Shown in pieces: positions 11,393-18,739 of a stretch of 61,796 bases of DNA (positions within the stretch are counted from its first letter, which is position 1; each line of letters begins with the position of its first letter). The notes below the pieces were generated by a model that had not been told where the DNA came from, searched no databases, and worked only from the letters and a program-made list of their open reading frames with translations. A program made the position numbers and the translations under genes. Source of the DNA: Myxococcales bacterium (GTDB lineage: Bacteria > Myxococcota > B64-G9); assembly GCA_012798435.1 (NCBI GenBank), contig JAAZNF010000010.1, positions 1 through 61,796 of the forward strand, given 5' to 3'.

Positions 11393-11767
11393 TCAGCGGT
11401 TGAGCATGGCGTTGACGATGCGCAGCAGCTGGCTGGCGGTGAACGGCTTGGCCAAGAACACCGTTCCGCCGGAGCGGAACCCCTCGCGCATGGACTCGGA
11501 GTCGTCCCGCGCGGTGACGAACACCACCGGGGGCCGCACCCCCTTCTCGTTGCGCCGCACGCTGCGGGCCACCTCGAAACCATCGATGCCGGGCATCATG
11601 ATGTCCAGCAGGATGAGATCGTAGCTCTCCTGCTCGATCATGCGGATGGCCTCCGCCCCCTCGGTGGTGCGCGCCACCTCGAAGCCGGACTTCTCCAGGA
11701 TGCGCTGGATCATGAGCACGATGTCCGCGTCGTCGTCCACCACCAGAATGCGTTTCTTGTCTGGCAT
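11393..11767 (-). CDS. Single-domain response regulator
   Basis: Receiver-only protein of 124 residues, with acidic triad Asp11-Asp13, phospho-accepting Asp55 in LLDIMMP, a Thr in FVTARDD and Lys in LAKPF. It lies three bases after the PocR-domain kinase stop and before the transducer, so it is probably phosphorylated by that kinase. It could feed a signal into the chemosensory cluster or be a second output alongside the CheY-like protein encoded at 9391-9762. No DNA-binding or enzymatic output domain is present. Confidence 0.93.
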
Positions 11768-11770
11768 GCC

Positions 11771-13204
11771 TCACCCCTGGGTCGGACGCTCCACCGGGAG
11801 TACGAAACGGAACACGCTGCCCTTGCCCACCTCGCTCTCCACCTGGATGGTGCCCCCGTGGGCCTCCACGAAGCTCTTGGCGATGGCCAGGCCCAGCCCG
11901 GTGCCCCCGTACTCCCGGGTCGAGGAGCCGTCCACCTGGTAGAACGAGTCGAAGACGCGGTGCAGCTTGTCCTGCGGGATGCCGATGCCGGTGTCGCGGA
12001 CGGTGACCAGCACCACGGGTTCCTCGGTCTGGGCCAACGCCTCGGGCAGCCCGTCGGCGCCCGTCGGCTGGCGGCGCGGCAGGCGGGCGTTGACGAGCTC
12101 CAGCTCCACGCGGCCCCCCTTGCGGTTGAACTTGATGGCGTTGCCCAAGAGGTTCACCAGCACCTGGCGGATCTTGTCGCCGTCCGCCACCAGCGAGGGC
12201 AGGTTCTCGCCCACCCTCACCACCACCTCGACGGACTGCTTGCGGGCCATGGGGAGCACGGTGGTGACCGCGGCCCGCACGATCTCGCCCAGGTTGCAGT
12301 TCGAGAGGTTCAGACGCAAGTTGCCGGACTCCACCTTGGAGAAGTCCAGGATGCTGGTGATGAGCGAGAGCAGGTTCTCGCCCTTCTCCATGATGGTGCG
12401 CACGTAGTCGGTCTGCTCCGGCGACAGGGCGCCGGCCAGCCCCTCCAGCAGCATCTCGCTGTAGCCGATCACCGAGGTCAGCGGCGTGCGCAGCTCGTGC
12501 GACACGGTGGCCAGGAAGCTGGACTTGAGCCGGTCCAGCTCCTTGAGCCGCTCGAAGGACTCCTGCAGCACCCGGTTCTTGTCCTGCAGCTCGTTGTAGC
12601 TGGCGCTGACCGCCTCCACGTGCATGCGCGAGGTGAGCGCCTGCTTGTAGCCGGTGTGCACCATCACTTCGATCACCTGCGCCAGGTGCCGCACCACCTT
12701 CTGCGCCGCCGCCTGAGGAACCCGCCGCACCCGGAGTAGCAGCCGGGCCGCGATGTCCGGGTTGAACTTCTCTCCCATGGCCTCGGAGGAGAGAGCCAGC
12801 GGCCGGCCCTCGGCCGGCAGGTAGGGCCCGTACAGGATGCGGCCCATCAGATCGCCCTCGTACAGGATGGGCATGACCAGGTAGCGCAGGCCGGTGAAAC
12901 AGTCGTGCACCAGCGGCTGGGCGCCGGGCAGATCCATCTGACGCAGGGCGGTGACCTCGGCGGTGCAGCGGGACTTGCCGGCGGGGAAATTGAACAGGTA
13001 GGCGCAGTAGTCGGCCGACTCGCCCTTGGTGTCGATGAGCTTCTCCCCCGCCCGGTCCAGGATGCGGAAACCGATCTGGAACAGGTCGGCGTAGGAGTCG
13101 CACACCTCGCGGAACACCGCCACGTCCAGCAGCTCCGACAGCGAGAAGTTGCGCTGCAGTGCCGAGGACAGATCGCGGCCGCCGGCGGCGGGGAACGGGT
13201 TCAT
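11771..13204 (-). CDS. Histidine kinase with PocR-type sensory domain
   Basis: Soluble kinase of 477 residues with no membrane segment. Residues 25-190 resemble the PocR sensory domain, with three cysteines (Cys67, Cys80, Cys102) spaced as in YCAYL, SRC and HDCFTGL that could bind a metal or sense redox state. A coiled coil (about 200-228) leads to HisKA with phospho-accepting His236 in FLATVSHELRTPL, then an ATPase domain with NLLGNAIKF, DTGIGIP and GGTGLGLAI. The start ATG overlaps the mglA-like stop (ATGA). It is followed by a receiver and the chemosensory genes, so it is likely part of the same circuit. Confidence 0.9.
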   Translation of the reverse strand: MNPFPAAGGRDLSSALQRNFSLSELLDVAVFREVCDSYADLFQIGFRILDRAGEKLIDTKGESADYCAYLFNFPAGKSRCTAEVTALRQMDLPGAQPLVHDCFTGLRYLVMPILYEGDLMGRILYGPYLPAEGRPLALSSEAMGEKFNPDIAARLLLRVRRVPQAAAQKVVRHLAQVIEVMVHTGYKQALTSRMHVEAVSASYNELQDKNRVLQESFERLKELDRLKSSFLATVSHELRTPLTSVIGYSEMLLEGLAGALSPEQTDYVRTIMEKGENLLSLITSILDFSKVESGNLRLNLSNCNLGEIVRAAVTTVLPMARKQSVEVVVRVGENLPSLVADGDKIRQVLVNLLGNAIKFNRKGGRVELELVNARLPRRQPTGADGLPEALAQTEEPVVLVTVRDTGIGIPQDKLHRVFDSFYQVDGSSTREYGGTGLGLAIAKSFVEAHGGTIQVESEVGKGSVFRFVLPVERPTQG

Positions 13205-13896
13205 GGCGCAGACCTCCCCGGAGCCTGGTCCGCCATGCCCGCGGTGGGCGACAGGCGCAGCAAGCTGGTGATGAACTCCTCCTCCTCGATGTGTAGCTTG
13301 CTCGAGAGTCCGTGCCGGGCGTCCAGGGTGCGCCAGGTGAAGCGCAGCAAGCCGGCCAGCGTCTCCATCACGCCCTCGCCCCGGAGAGCCACCGCCTTGA
13401 ACACCGGCTCCCGGCCGCGCCGGGCCACCTCGTCGATCTCCTCGTCCGAGCGCACGTCGGGAAGATCGCGCTTGTTGAACTGGATGACCACCGGCAGCTC
13501 CTGTACGTTCAGCCCGTTCTGTTTGAGGTTGTGAGCCATGTCGCGCCAGGAGTCGTTGTTGGCCCGGGTCATGGACCGTTGGGAATCGGCCACGAACACG
13601 ATCCCGTCCGCGGCCTGCAACACCACCCGCCGCGTGGAGCTGTGCATGACCTGACCGGGGGCGGTGAATAGCTTGACCTTGACCGAGAAACCGGAGCGGC
13701 TGCGGAAGAACACCGGCATCAGGTCGAAGAACAGGGTGCGGTCGTCGGAGGTGTCCAGCACCATCAGCCGCCCGCGCACCGTGGGGTCCATCAGTTGGTG
13801 GATGGCCTGCAGGTTGGTGGTCTTCCCCGACAGGGCGGGGCCGTAGTAGACGATCTTGAGGGTGATTTCCCGCTGCTCGAGGTTGATCTGGACCAT
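13201..13896 (-). CDS. MglA-like Ras-superfamily GTPase
   Basis: GTPase of 231 residues closely patterned on MglA, the polarity switch of Myxococcus gliding and twitching motility. Seen are the P-loop GPALSGKT (19-26), DDRTLFFDLMP (switch I region), the switch II sequence TAPGQV followed by FVADSQ, and the base-specificity motif NKRDLP. As in MglA, switch II carries PGQ. A C-terminal extension of about 35 residues beyond the G domain is extra. No mglB (roadblock GAP) gene is nearby. It is cotranslated with the PocR kinase and lies 28 bases after hsp20. Confidence 0.92.
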   Translation of the reverse strand: MVQINLEQREITLKIVYYGPALSGKTTNLQAIHQLMDPTVRGRLMVLDTSDDRTLFFDLMPVFFRSRSGFSVKVKLFTAPGQVMHSSTRRVVLQAADGIVFVADSQRSMTRANNDSWRDMAHNLKQNGLNVQELPVVIQFNKRDLPDVRSDEEIDEVARRGREPVFKAVALRGEGVMETLAGLLRFTWRTLDARHGLSSKLHIEEEEFITSLLRLSPTAGMADQAPGRSAP

Positions 13897-13924
13897 GGCC
13901 CGATCCCGTCCGGACGCCGCCGGG

Positions 13925-14371
13925 TCACTCGATGGCCACCTTGCGCTTCTGGCCACGGCGCTCCCGGATGCGCGGCAGGCGCACCGAAAGAACGCCGGCC
14001 TGGAAGCGCGCCTTGAGGTTCTGCATGTCCCCGGCCCCGGGCAACTCCACCACCCGGCGGAAGGCGCCATAGGAGCGCTCCATGCACAGGTAGCGGGAAT
14101 CCGAGGGTGGCTGGGGTCGCGGTTTCCGCCCCTCGATGATCAAGATGTCGCGCAGGACCGACAACTCCAGGTCCTCGCGTCGCAGCCCGGGCAGCTCGAC
14201 CTCGATGACGATCTCTTCCGGGGTCTCGAACACGTCCACCGGAATGTCGGCGGCCAGCTCCACCGCCGCGCCCTCGTCGGAGTCGGAGTGGAAGAAATCC
14301 CGAAACAACCGGTCCATCTCGCGCCGCAAGAACAGCAGCCGCTCGATCGATTCCTTGGGAATGCTGGCCAT
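13925..14371 (-). CDS. Small heat shock protein, Hsp20/alpha-crystallin family
   Basis: ATP-independent holdase chaperone of 148 residues. The alpha-crystallin domain spans about 43-140 with VELPGLRREDLELSV, the strand sequence ERSYGAFRRVVELP and the conserved A-x-x-x-G-V-L motif in ARFQAGVLSV; the C-terminal tail RERRGQKRKVAIE is highly basic. The usual I-x-I tail motif is not evident. It starts at ATG 14371 with GGGAGAGG upstream, just after a well-formed promoter (14399-14427), and is the first gene of the minus-strand run leading into the GTPase and chemosensory genes. Confidence 0.93.
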   Translation of the reverse strand: MASIPKESIERLLFLRREMDRLFRDFFHSDSDEGAAVELAADIPVDVFETPEEIVIEVELPGLRREDLELSVLRDILIIEGRKPRPQPPSDSRYLCMERSYGAFRRVVELPGAGDMQNLKARFQAGVLSVRLPRIRERRGQKRKVAIE

Positions 14372-14398
14372 GGGTCGCCTCTCCCGTACTGAGGGGCG

Positions 14399-14427
14399 AA
14401 GATAACACCCCGCGCCACCGATGGCAA
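14399..14427 (-). promoter_or_regulatory. Sigma-70-type promoter for hsp20 and probably the genes downstream
   Basis: On the minus strand, -35 TTGCCA (14422-14427, five of six consensus bases) and -10 TATCTT (14399-14404, four of six) are separated by exactly 17 bases. It lies between the apgM stop and the hsp20 start and is the only recognisable promoter before the run of minus genes to 3305. Sequence match only. Confidence 0.6.
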
Positions 14428-14433
14428 AGGAAT

Positions 14434-15654
14434 TCAGGCCCCGAACTTGGCCAGCCGGCCGGCGTGGGCGAGCAGCAGCGCCATGAGCTCGCTGGCGCGA
14501 ATTCGCCCCAGACCGCCCCCGAGACAGGCGCTCTCGTGGAAGGCACGGGCCGCATCGCGCCGCACGTTCTGGCCCCGGATGAGCAGCGGCACCGGGTGGA
14601 AGGAGTGGCTGCGCATGGCGCAGGGGGTAGAGTGATCGCCGGTCACGCACAGCACCTCGGGCCGCAGCGCGACAAGGCGCGGCACCAGCCGGTCGAACTC
14701 CTCGATCACCTTGACCTTGGCGGCGAAGTTGCCGTCCTCTCCGGCGGAGTCGGTCTTCTTGACGTGCAGGAACAAGAAGTCGGTGCGGGGAAGCTCTCGT
14801 TCCACCAGCGCCACCTCTTGTTCCAGAGTGCTCTGGCCCTCCTCCACCACGCGCATGCCGGCCAGTCGCGCCACCCCCTTGTACATGGGGTAGGCGGCCA
14901 CGGCCGCGGCGCGCCAGCGGTACAGCTCGCAGAAGTTCGGTAGCGGCACGTAGAGATCGAAGCCACGCAGCATCACGAAGTTGGCGGCGGGCTCGTCGGC
15001 CAGGACGGTGCGGGCGCGCTCGATGAGGGCGTTGGCCAGGCGTGCGGCGCGTAAAGCCCTGGGCGAGGGCTCGGCCGCGGCGGGTTCGACCGGGAGCGGC
15101 GGCAGTCCCTCCTTCTGCGGATCGCTGTCCTTGAGCCCGGCCTCCAGCTCGGCCCCGCGGAACACTGCGGCGGCGCGGTACTCTTTGACGTGCTGGAACA
15201 GCACCCGCACTCCGTCGATGTCGCGAATGGCGCGGGCCAGGCGCTCGGTGACCCGCAGGCCCTCGGCGTCCGCGATCCGCCCCGCCCGTCGATCGCGGAT
15301 GCGGCCGTCCGGGCCGATGGTGGCGAAGTTGATGCGTGCGGCCAGGTCTCCGGCGGCGAACTCGAAGGCGGTGCCGGCAGTGTCCAGCACCCCCCGGCCG
15401 ATGGTGAAGCGCAGCGGATCGTAGCCGAACAGGGCGATGTGGGCCGGGCCGGAGCCCGGGGTGATGCCCGGCGCCACCGGATCGTGGAAGCCGCACACGC
15501 CTTCCTCGGCCAGCCGGTCGAGGTTGGGGGTCGCGGCCGCCTCCAGGGCGGTCTTTCCTTCGGGCCCGGGCAGATCGCCCAACCCGTCCAGGACCACCAG
15601 CACCACCTTGCTGGCGTTCTCCACCACCAACGAAGACAGGAAAGAAAGTTCCAT
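14434..15654 (-). CDS. apgM: 2,3-bisphosphoglycerate-independent phosphoglycerate mutase, archaeal type
   Basis: Interconverts 3- and 2-phosphoglycerate in glycolysis. The 406-residue length and motifs match the ApgM branch of the alkaline phosphatase superfamily: metal-binding VLVVLDGLGDLP near the N-terminus, GSGPAHIALFGYDP, a middle domain, then the C-terminal metal motifs KKTDSAGEDGN and VTGDHSTPC. ATG 15654 is preceded by GGGAGG; further in-frame codons upstream (to 15708) overlap the adjacent kinase stop and lack support. Enolase, the next glycolytic enzyme, lies about 39 kb away at 53665. Confidence 0.93.
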   Translation of the reverse strand: MELSFLSSLVVENASKVVLVVLDGLGDLPGPEGKTALEAAATPNLDRLAEEGVCGFHDPVAPGITPGSGPAHIALFGYDPLRFTIGRGVLDTAGTAFEFAAGDLAARINFATIGPDGRIRDRRAGRIADAEGLRVTERLARAIRDIDGVRVLFQHVKEYRAAAVFRGAELEAGLKDSDPQKEGLPPLPVEPAAAEPSPRALRAARLANALIERARTVLADEPAANFVMLRGFDLYVPLPNFCELYRWRAAAVAAYPMYKGVARLAGMRVVEEGQSTLEQEVALVERELPRTDFLFLHVKKTDSAGEDGNFAAKVKVIEEFDRLVPRLVALRPEVLCVTGDHSTPCAMRSHSFHPVPLLIRGQNVRRDAARAFHESACLGGGLGRIRASELMALLLAHAGRLAKFGA

Positions 15655-15679: not shown

Positions 15680-15708
15680 AATATCTCCGAGACGCGGGCG
15701 GGAATCAA
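15680..15708 (-). promoter_or_regulatory. Possible promoter for apgM
   Basis: On the minus strand, -35 TTGATT (15703-15708) and -10 GATATT (15680-15685) are 17 bases apart, each matching four of six consensus bases, about 25 bases upstream of the apgM start. The -35 overlaps the stop of the preceding kinase gene. Moderate match only. Confidence 0.42.
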
Positions 15709-17027
15709 CCCGGGATCGGGCCTCGCCGCGCGCGATTCAACAACGCCTCGATCTCCCGCCGTCCGAACGGTTTGGGCAAGAATCCGTCCATGCCCGCCTC
15801 GCGGCAGGCGGCCTCTTGCTGCATGCCGCGCTCGGCCGACATCCCGAAAACCCCGGTGCGCTCGCCGCGCGCCTCGGCCTCGAACCGTCGCAGCTCGCGG
15901 GTCAGGGTCAGGCCGTCCATCTCCGGCAACCCGCAGTCCACCAGGGCCAGGTCGAACCCGCCGTCACGCAGGGCCTGCAGCGCCGCTCGGCCGTCGCTGG
16001 TCTCAACCACCTCACAACCCAGGTCGGTGAGGATGCGCGCCAACATGCGCCGGCCGACCGGATCGTCCTCCGCCACCAGCACCCGCCGCGCCGGGGGCTG
16101 GGATCCGACCTCGCCCTGGATGACGGCGACGCCTTCCAACCGCGGCTCCCCGGCCAGGCGCTCTCGCTGGACTTCGAGCAAGTGCTCGTCCCGGGCCAGC
16201 CGCAGGATCGCCTCCACGCCGGCCACCAGGGCCTGCCCGATACCTCGCGCTTCCCGGCCCAGCTCGCGGCGCCGTTCTGTCGATGGCTCGTCCTTGAGCA
16301 ACACCATGATCCCCAGGATGTGGTGCAGCGGCTCGCGGATCTCGCGGTTGAGCGAGGACAGGAAGCGGGTCTTGCTCTCCGACACCCCGCGGGCCTCGGC
16401 CAGAGCCGCCTCCTGGTCCCGCTCCGCCCGGGCGCAGATGGCGTGGTTGTAGGAGAACATCAGCGTGATGCCGACGAACGAGGTGAGCCAGGTCATGACG
16501 GTGTCGAACAAGCGCCAATCCTCCGGCGTCAAGAAGGGGAAGACCACGCCGTGCGCCTCGGCGCACCCCATCCAGCTCACGCCTCCCACCACCACCAGGG
16601 TCCACCACAGACCGCCGATGCCCGCCAATACCACCGCGCACACCGGCACCGCCAGCAGAAGCGACAGACTGGCCATGGTGAGCCCGCCGGAGTACGCCGT
16701 CGCGCTGAAGGCCGCGCCCACCATCGCCAGGCACATCAGGTGGGCCCACACCGAAAACCGCGTGGCCCGGCGCACCGCCACCATCACGCCGATGGTCGCG
16801 AGCAGCAGGCCGGCCTGCCACGCGGCCAGGGGCCAGGCGGCGTAGGCAATCTGGTTGACCAGCCAGAACAAAAGCAGCATGGCCAGGACCACGCCCCCCC
16901 AGTTGAGCAGGCGTACGCGCCGACGCGATTCGATGTCCAAGTCGCGTTCCGAGAGCGACAGAAAGCCGTCGATGCGCTCGAATACCAACGAAAGGCGCCG
17001 GCGACACCCCTGCATGAACCCGCTCAT
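15705..17027 (-). CDS. Degenerate membrane sensor kinase with receiver domain (no kinase core)
   Basis: Protein of 440 residues: about six transmembrane helices (about 45-200), a HisKA-like helix, and a C-terminal receiver (about 310-435). The helix reads FLSSLNREIREPLHHILG, so the phospho-accepting His of the usual SHE/D motif is Arg228. Only about 75 residues separate this helix from the receiver and none resemble N, G1 or G2 boxes, so the ATPase domain is absent. The receiver keeps its acidic pair (AEDD), Asp in LVDCGLPEMDG and Lys in LPKPF. The membrane region resembles that of the next gene upstream, which it overlaps as ATGA. It is probably a signalling adaptor or phosphate sink for its paralogue. 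Confidence 0.85.
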   Translation of the reverse strand: MSGFMQGCRRRLSLVFERIDGFLSLSERDLDIESRRRVRLLNWGGVVLAMLLLFWLVNQIAYAAWPLAAWQAGLLLATIGVMVAVRRATRFSVWAHLMCLAMVGAAFSATAYSGGLTMASLSLLLAVPVCAVVLAGIGGLWWTLVVVGGVSWMGCAEAHGVVFPFLTPEDWRLFDTVMTWLTSFVGITLMFSYNHAICARAERDQEAALAEARGVSESKTRFLSSLNREIREPLHHILGIMVLLKDEPSTERRRELGREARGIGQALVAGVEAILRLARDEHLLEVQRERLAGEPRLEGVAVIQGEVGSQPPARRVLVAEDDPVGRRMLARILTDLGCEVVETSDGRAALQALRDGGFDLALVDCGLPEMDGLTLTRELRRFEAEARGERTGVFGMSAERGMQQEAACREAGMDGFLPKPFGRREIEALLNRARRGPIPG

Positions 17028-18739
17028 GCCGCGCCTCCGCGGGGTCGGAAGCGGAGCAGCACCTCGTGCAGGTCCGCGCCCTGGAACGGCTTGACCAACA
17101 CACCGGCCATCCCCAGCCGCTCCCGGAGCGACTCGTCCGTGTACGCCGTGTGAGCGGTCATGGCCACCACGGGCGGCAGGCGGGCGATCGCTCCGCTCGC
17201 CACGAGCTCGCGCATGCGCCGGGTGGCCTCGACGCCGTCCATGACGGGCATCTGGATGTCTATGAGCACCACATCGAACGCCTCGCGCTGGAGCGCCTCC
17301 ACCGCCGCTTTCCCGTCGCCCACCGCCATGACCCGGCACCCCAGCCGCTCCAGCATGAGCACGGTGAGCCGGCGGTTGGTCTCGTCGTCCTCGGCCAGCA
17401 GCACCCCCATCCCGGCCAGATCCGATTCGACCGCCGCCACGACGGGCGGCGGCTCGGGCGGCCGCGTCAGCGGCGGGAGAGCCAAGGAGAAGTAGAAGCG
17501 GCTGCCGCGGCCCGGCGCGGACTCGGCTTGCAGCCGTCCGCCCATCGCCTCCACCAGGCGTTGGCTGATGGCCAGGCCCAGGCCGGCCCCCTGCTGGCGG
17601 CTCGCCTCCGGCCCGGCCTGGTAGTACGGAAGGAAGACCTTGGCGAGCTCGGCCGGTTCGATGCCCACGCCGTCGTCATGCACCTCGAAGCGCAGCCGCT
17701 CGCCCGCGGCGTCCGTCCCCTCCCGCTCGACCCGGATCTCCACCCGGCCGTTCTCGGTGAACTTGATGGCGTTCCCCGCCAGGTTGAGCAGCACCTGCTG
17801 CAACCGGCCGGCGTCCCCCCGCACCCAGGCCGGCACCTCCGGCGCCACGCGACCCAGCAGGCGGTTCCCCCGGTCGGCGGCCCGGGCGGACAGGACCTCG
17901 AGCACCTGCTCGACGCTCCGCGCCGGCGAGAACGGCTCCCGGCGCAGCTCGATCGCGCCGGACTCCGCTCGCGACAGGTCCAGCAGGTCATCCAGGATGT
18001 GCAGGAGCATGCGCGAGGTGGTCTGGGCCTGGGTGGCCTGGGCCTTTCGGGTGACGGAATCGTCCTCCACCTCCATCATCTCCATCAAACCCAGCAACGA
18101 GTGCAGGGGCGTGCGCACATCGTGGCTCACCCGGGCCGCGAACTCCGCCTTGGCGGCCGCCGCCCGCTCGGCCACCTCGCGCGCCGCGCGAAGCTCATGG
18201 CTGGCGCTCTGGTAGGCCCGCTCGTAGGTCCAGGCCAGAAAGGCGATGACCAGCAGGCTGGTGACCCAGGTGAGCGCCGCGTCCAGCGCGCGCTGCTCCG
18301 GCGGGATGAGGTTGGGGAAGGCAAAGCCGCCGTGATGGAGAAGCGCCATGGCGCCCACGCACAGCAAGGTCGGCAACACCCACCACAGGCCGCGCCGTTC
18401 GCACATGCTGAGCGCGCCCACCGGGATGGTGATGAATAGGCAGGCGTTCGTGCCGGCCAGACCGCCACCGATGAATGCGCCGACGGCAATGACCAGGAGC
18501 AGCATGGCGGTCATGAGAAAGCCCGTTCGGTCCAGCCCCAGCCGCTCCCGGTAGCGAAGCAGTACGATCGCCAGCGCCGACACCGCCGCGAAGAACAGCG
18601 CCACGCCAAGGTTGCCGTAGAAGAGCTGGCCCACCACCCACGTGCCGCTGGAGATGACGAGCACCAGAGCGGCGGGCAGGAACAACCGGCGCCGGCGCTG
18701 GCTCAATCCGCCGCTGGATCCGGCAATCGCTTGTGCCAT
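17024..18739 (-). CDS. Membrane-bound hybrid histidine kinase
   Basis: Hybrid kinase of 571 residues from ATG 18739; a GTG at 18757 would add six. About six transmembrane helices (20-190) have no sizeable periplasmic loop, so it may sense within or at the membrane. HisKA has the phospho-accepting His in FAARVSHDVRTPLHSLLG. The ATPase domain shows NLAGNAIKF, DDGVGIEP and GAGLGLAIS. A C-terminal receiver has Asp in VLIDIQMPVMDG and Lys in LVKPF. It overlaps the degenerate paralogue downstream. No separate response regulator with an output domain is adjacent, so its final target is unknown. Confidence 0.9.
   Translation of the reverse strand: MAQAIAGSSGGLSQRRRRLFLPAALVLVISSGTWVVGQLFYGNLGVALFFAAVSALAIVLLRYRERLGLDRTGFLMTAMLLLVIAVGAFIGGGLAGTNACLFITIPVGALSMCERRGLWWVLPTLLCVGAMALLHHGGFAFPNLIPPEQRALDAALTWVTSLLVIAFLAWTYERAYQSASHELRAAREVAERAAAAKAEFAARVSHDVRTPLHSLLGLMEMMEVEDDSVTRKAQATQAQTTSRMLLHILDDLLDLSRAESGAIELRREPFSPARSVEQVLEVLSARAADRGNRLLGRVAPEVPAWVRGDAGRLQQVLLNLAGNAIKFTENGRVEIRVEREGTDAAGERLRFEVHDDGVGIEPAELAKVFLPYYQAGPEASRQQGAGLGLAISQRLVEAMGGRLQAESAPGRGSRFYFSLALPPLTRPPEPPPVVAAVESDLAGMGVLLAEDDETNRRLTVLMLERLGCRVMAVGDGKAAVEALQREAFDVVLIDIQMPVMDGVEATRRMRELVASGAIARLPPVVAMTAHTAYTDESLRERLGMAGVLVKPFQGADLHEVLLRFRPRGGAA

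Follow-up and report, generated by a model that had tools for sequence, protein, structure and literature searches.

Few pseudokinase partners of histidine kinases are known, and most of them retain parts of the catalytic core. DivL, for example, carries Tyr in place of the His, keeps an ATPase-like domain and has no receiver. Two other systems are of particular interest as precedents for the locus described here. The first is RetS, which receives phosphate from the His of GacS on its second receiver (mechanism 1; PMC5992135), can draw on HExxT, the transmitter phosphatase motif (mechanism 2; PMC5992135), and has a DHp that replaces one GacS DHp to yield a DHp heterodimer (mechanism 3; PMC12148439). 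The second is FasB/FasC, a six-TM kinase pair from one locus, in which FasC still functions as a partner without its ATPase domain (PMC12675982). When the literature was searched for natural proteins in which HisKA is joined to a receiver and the ATPase domain is missing, no direct match emerged.

The pair of genes that concerns us lies on the minus strand of a 61,796-nucleotide stretch of DNA from a Myxococcales bacterium, which we call the window. The first gene, P2 (17024-18739; 571 aa), encodes a complete membrane hybrid histidine kinase with about six TM helices, followed by HisKA, HATPase and a receiver (Pfam HisKA 50.7, HATPase_c 102.6 and Response_reg 81.9 bits); its H-box, SHDVRTPL, has the His, and the three domains expected of a hybrid histidine kinase thus occur in one protein. 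The second, P1 (15705-17027; minus strand; 440 aa), has a degenerate DHp, an intact receiver and no HATPase domain. An earlier note on this DNA had the coordinates of both genes, their motifs and the number of the critical residue right, and its description of two proteins with about six helices, matching landmarks and a C-terminal receiver holds: the two proteins align at the landmarks GLWWTL/GLWWVL and FPFLTPEDWRLFDTVMTW/FPNLIPPEQRALDAALTW, and both carry Response_reg.

P1 is best described from its N-terminus onwards. Residues 1-205 (16413-17027, minus strand) form the N-terminal and membrane module, with about six TM helices by hydropathy; this part has no Pfam family, and it is homologous to P2 and to other family members. 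The DHp region, residues 169-293 (16149-16523, minus strand), is delimited by a structure model and by a HisKA match over residues 219-282 that falls just below the Pfam cut-off (24.9 vs 26.9 bits, E 2.1e-5), and the receiver occupies residues 313-440 (15708-16091, minus strand; Response_reg, 80.7 bits). Nothing else in P1 was matched by Pfam, and no HATPase was found even at E<=10, so that the hidden ATPase domain for which the earlier note had wanted a profile search is absent; moreover, the gap between DHp and receiver, about 30 residues (roughly 283-312), is too short to accommodate one, in keeping with the claim that P1 runs from the HisKA helix straight into its receiver. Among the NCBIfam matches listed for P1, the best stretch is always within the receiver; some hybrid-kinase models match over another stretch as well.

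Position 228, where the 11 other aligned family members have His, is Arg in P1 (NREIREPL), just as had been reported, and, in addition to what the earlier note saw, the Thr of the HExxT motif is replaced by Glu232, a Glu unique to P1 in a 12-row alignment, so that the motif reads REIRE; E229, R231 and P233 of the H-box are retained in the same alignment. Compared with a hybrid histidine kinase, P1 therefore has neither HATPase_c nor the phospho-acceptor His and does have the receiver residues, the full set of which (the acidic pair E320/D321, the phospho-Asp D364, S397 and K419) bears out the view that its receiver pocket is intact. P1 is unable to autophosphorylate.

An AlphaFold2 model of P1, built with the 12-row alignment, in which ten relatives accompany P1 and P2, reached a mean pLDDT of 81.8; a single-sequence model was poor (pLDDT 49.8) and was set aside. 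Membrane helices were modelled at 32-61, 65-85, 91-111, 118-158 and from 169 onwards, mostly at pLDDT 80-96, and the last of them is continuous with DHp helix 1 in a single helix spanning 169-246. DHp helix 2 follows at 251-293 (the hairpin has pLDDT of about 58-82), residues 293-310 are disordered, and the receiver fold is complete at pLDDT of about 90. The matches listed in a search of solved structures all cover the receiver and none the membrane module, the best being GacS D1 (Z 21.8, 126 aligned, rmsd 1.6).

Could P1 simply be a decaying, functionless duplicate on its way to being lost? It has lost a whole domain as well as two catalytic motifs, its branch in the family tree is long, and searches of 58 relatives and 195 phylum genomes turned up no orthologue, either of the pair or of P1 alone, the genus of the window being represented among them by no other genome. 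Against this stand 440 open codons with coding-type codon-position G+C in every domain, linker included (GC3 0.91 and GC2 0.45 in the degenerate DHp itself), a pattern that, though not a test of selection, argues against long neutral decay. The receiver active site is intact, the lost segment ends close to the domain boundaries, where the linker is flexible, and the start of P1 is coupled to P2: the ATGA overlap claimed in the earlier note is found at 17024-17027 on the minus strand (P1 ATG 17027-17025, P2 TGA 17026-17024), and GGAGG, resembling a ribosome-binding site, lies six bases ahead of the ATG, within P2. We regard decay as improbable.

How the two genes are related to one another is less straightforward. 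Across the 5.0-Mb assembly, just three loci match the membrane and DHp region of P1 over most of its length, namely P1, P2 and one on contig C129, and since two of these are neighbours their adjacency is not a matter of chance. The nearest relative in the same genome of both the membrane/DHp part and the receiver of P1 is P2, with which it shares 28-29% protein identity. Kinases of two other genomes are nevertheless better matches to P1 (G002, E 6.8e-31; G008, E 6.4e-27) than P2 is (E 5.4e-22), and a tree that holds P1 and P2 together has a p-AU of 0.26, so their sisterhood is neither supported nor rejected. The earlier description of the two as tandem paralogues is right; given this identity and a tree without proof of sisterhood, direct duplication of one from the other is not established. 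Nor is it likely that we are looking at an assembly artefact, in which tandem paralogues were collapsed and the ATPase domain of P1 dropped along the way. The source is a 129-contig draft of a single genome, which is where such errors might be expected, but 28-29% identity is too distant for collapse, the P1 junction is in frame, and the substitutions of His and Thr are independent of the deletion; we give this explanation very little credence.

The same figures bear on a more serious competitor, in which P1 pairs with itself as an independent membrane receptor, in effect a membrane-tethered response regulator that P2 or some other kinase phosphorylates in trans on its receiver, with no mixed dimer. 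Mixed P1:P2 dimers are not guaranteed, because the membrane and DHp parts are so distant from P2 and closer to single kinases of other genomes; a P1 homodimer could be equally conceivable. The receiver has its full pocket and fold, and many kinases of the same genome, with 51 HisKA among the matches listed, could supply the phosphate. The gene overlap with P2, however, favours a shared complex, and a DHp with no catalytic role is still predicted to form a hairpin. All told, we consider this account rather unlikely, though worth keeping in view.

Comparison with other genomes puts the reduced form of P1 in context. Ten full-length relatives were identified (G000 C129, G001, G002, G004, two in G005, G008, G025, G042 and G044), a count that leaves out a fragment cut off by a contig end in G006 and, in G007, a gene split between frames. 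Nine are complete single-gene hybrid kinases, none of the ten lacks the ATPase domain, and the tenth, in G025, has the membrane part, DHp and ATPase domain with no receiver match; this protein (L053 1731-3260, plus strand; G025:C215) displays a domain loss opposite in kind to that of P1. In the stretches read around the relatives, no second member of the membrane family adjoins any of them, and no shared neighbour gene indicates the same locus as in the window. Only five other genomes of the 195 from the phylum (G001, G002, G004, G006 and G008) matched the membrane part at E<=1e-8, and none of the 195 gave a DHp-plus-receiver match without an ATPase domain at E<=1e-22, a threshold that weaker cases may escape. 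The pair that the earlier note had hoped to see in further genomes thus did not recur among the 195. Peptide patterns in wider genome contigs returned receiver-end matches only, and viral contigs held no orthologue of P1 or of the pair. Two of the family members deserve a further word. One (L049 2142-4331, minus strand; G005:C143) has an extra C-terminal stretch with AHSLKGSA that looks like a phosphotransfer (HPt) domain, which suggests that kinases of this family may be able to feed phosphorelays; the other, the split gene of G007 (L051 5917-7732, minus strand; G007:C188), runs over two overlapping frames, whether through a true frameshift or an error in sequencing.

Our favoured explanation, held tentatively and at a little under an even chance, casts P1 as a pseudokinase that acts as an accessory subunit of P2. 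In its favour are the domain anatomy, the intact receiver, the gene overlap with its GGAGG, the coding-type G+C, the standing of P2 as nearest relative within the genome, the recurrence of non-autonomous HisKA proteins in the family (see below) and the precedents of RetS/GacS and FasB/FasC; the long branch of P1, its unsettled sisterhood with P2 and the occurrence of the pair in a single genome among those searched count against it. In broader terms, P1 is probably a helper of, or a brake on, its neighbour. What it could still do is sense by way of its membrane part, dimerise and accept phosphate. The membrane and DHp helices would bring P1 and P2 together, and the receiver of P1 would accept phosphoryl groups from the His of P2, acting as a sink or second branch in the manner of RetS mechanism 1. 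By taking the place of one P2 protomer, P1 might also lower or retune P2 autophosphorylation, as in mechanism 3. Action as a transmitter phosphatase (mechanism 2) is probably beyond it, since the HExxT motif has been lost. The suggestion in the earlier note that P1 heterodimerises with the active kinase and offers it a second receiver is supported in part: its anatomical basis holds, and by analogy with the known pairs both heterodimerisation and phosphotransfer between P1 and P2 are plausible. In the receiver tree, a supported branch (96/97) leaves P1 and P2 together on one side, a placement that, viewed through the idea of 'phylogenetic promiscuity' (PMC8175716), would mildly favour cross-talk between them.

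Two variations on this theme can be distinguished. P1 may be chiefly dominant-negative, its mixed dimers blocking trans-autophosphorylation of P2 by mechanism 3 and its receiver being secondary. The DHp-DHp contact of RetS and GacS offers a precedent (PMC12148439), and the dimer helices have indeed been retained while the His, the Thr and the ATPase domain have gone; on the other hand, such a protein would have no need of a preserved receiver pocket, and the idea presumes that P2 phosphorylates itself in trans, when cis and trans are both possible. We think this improbable, if somewhat less so than decay. The bolder proposal makes P1 and P2 an obligate heterodimer whose translation is coupled and which would have two receivers but a single phospho-His and a single ATPase engine. 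The second receiver would then be a branch or sink in its own right, and a second signal would be sensed by the additional membrane module. It is doubtful that matters go so far; if they did, the pair would be a natural asymmetric hybrid kinase.

A gene of the 2,3-bisphosphoglycerate-independent phosphoglycerate mutase family (14434-15654, minus strand; Pfam) comes next after P1 with a gap of 50 bases, and co-directional genes for an Hsp20, a small GTPase-like protein, a PocR-domain histidine kinase and a single receiver follow at 11396-14377 (minus strand; Pfam). It is possible that this co-directional run (11396-15654) is an operon, in which case the pair would be linked with another kinase and another receiver. 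A gene for an FHA-domain protein lies nearby in divergent orientation, and no gene adjoining the pair was recognised as encoding a DNA-binding response regulator.

P1 is not the only HisKA protein of this kind in its genome, where five of the 51 HisKA among the matches listed have no downstream HATPase match; of these five, one sits at a contig end and another (C49:2956-3060) has an HATPase-like tail by eye. A REC-PAS-PAS-HisKA protein (L062 2436-3989, minus strand; G000:C49:59935-61488) has its phospho-His and no ATPase domain, and the long frame that comes next overlaps its gene by ATGA and contains HisKA and HATPase matches. The PAS-HisKA tail is found at 56-70% identity in all eight other family genomes (L074-L081); these orthologues end 75-77 residues past the His, and the conserved C-terminus, SYVGGQRIVDLDRSSEPE-like, is shared by 9/9 family genomes. 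A long open frame begins no more than about 60 bases from the stop in eight of these genomes (in the ninth, G002, the contig ends), and HisKA and HATPase matches lie downstream at G001 C25, G003 C240 and G004 C452. On comparative grounds this protein is a candidate conserved ATPase-less partner, and a better supported one than P1; its conservation upstream of a long frame makes non-autonomous HisKA proteins a lasting theme in the family. The same genome also encodes a V4R-HisKA-REC protein on C33 (L063 1521-3092, minus strand) that retains the His and passes directly from HisKA to the receiver with no ATPase domain; its relatives in G003, G004 and G006 sit within longer open frames.

How, then, does P1 compare with the systems already described? 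RetS of Pseudomonas aeruginosa is likewise a membrane hybrid kinase relative that does not autophosphorylate and has kept DHp and receiver (PMC5992135, PMC12148439), and it acts on its partner GacS through a receiver sink and a DHp heterodimer, both of which we propose, by analogy, for P1. RetS, however, retains a degenerate ATPase domain and an H-box with HExxT, neither of which is present in P1, whose ATPase domain, H-box His and Thr are all gone; it has two receivers and a periplasmic ligand-binding domain where P1 has a single receiver and some six TM helices, and, unlike RetS, P1 stands in tandem with its presumed partner. FasB and FasC of group A Streptococcus resemble P2 and P1 as six-TM kinase-like proteins from one locus; they heterodimerise, and one is a proposed pseudokinase whose ATPase domain is dispensable (PMC12675982). 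Two genes for proteins of about six TM helices at one locus, one without the ATPase domain, are exactly what we see here, but FasC retains a required His and has no receiver, whereas P1 has R228 at that position of the DHp and has kept its receiver. The frameshift pseudokinase of ChrS in Corynebacterium glutamicum, which also has no working ATPase domain, alters signalling by its paralogue and requires its DHp to do so; unlike P1, it is a laboratory-evolved truncation with no receiver, its His is dispensable, and no heterodimer of the truncated form was detected (PMC9491836). DivL, the Caulobacter pseudo-histidine kinase, modulates a hybrid kinase (PMC4211667), as proposed for P1.

The pair is real, and it is a stripped-down variant of known kinase-pseudokinase pairs, known from one genome; the strategy of giving a kinase a helper is already familiar, and the form that it takes in P1 is unusually reduced. 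Cut down to a membrane module, dimer helices and a receiver, and with the phosphatase route missing by sequence so that sink and dimer poisoning alone are left, P1 would allow genetics to separate the three RetS-like mechanisms.
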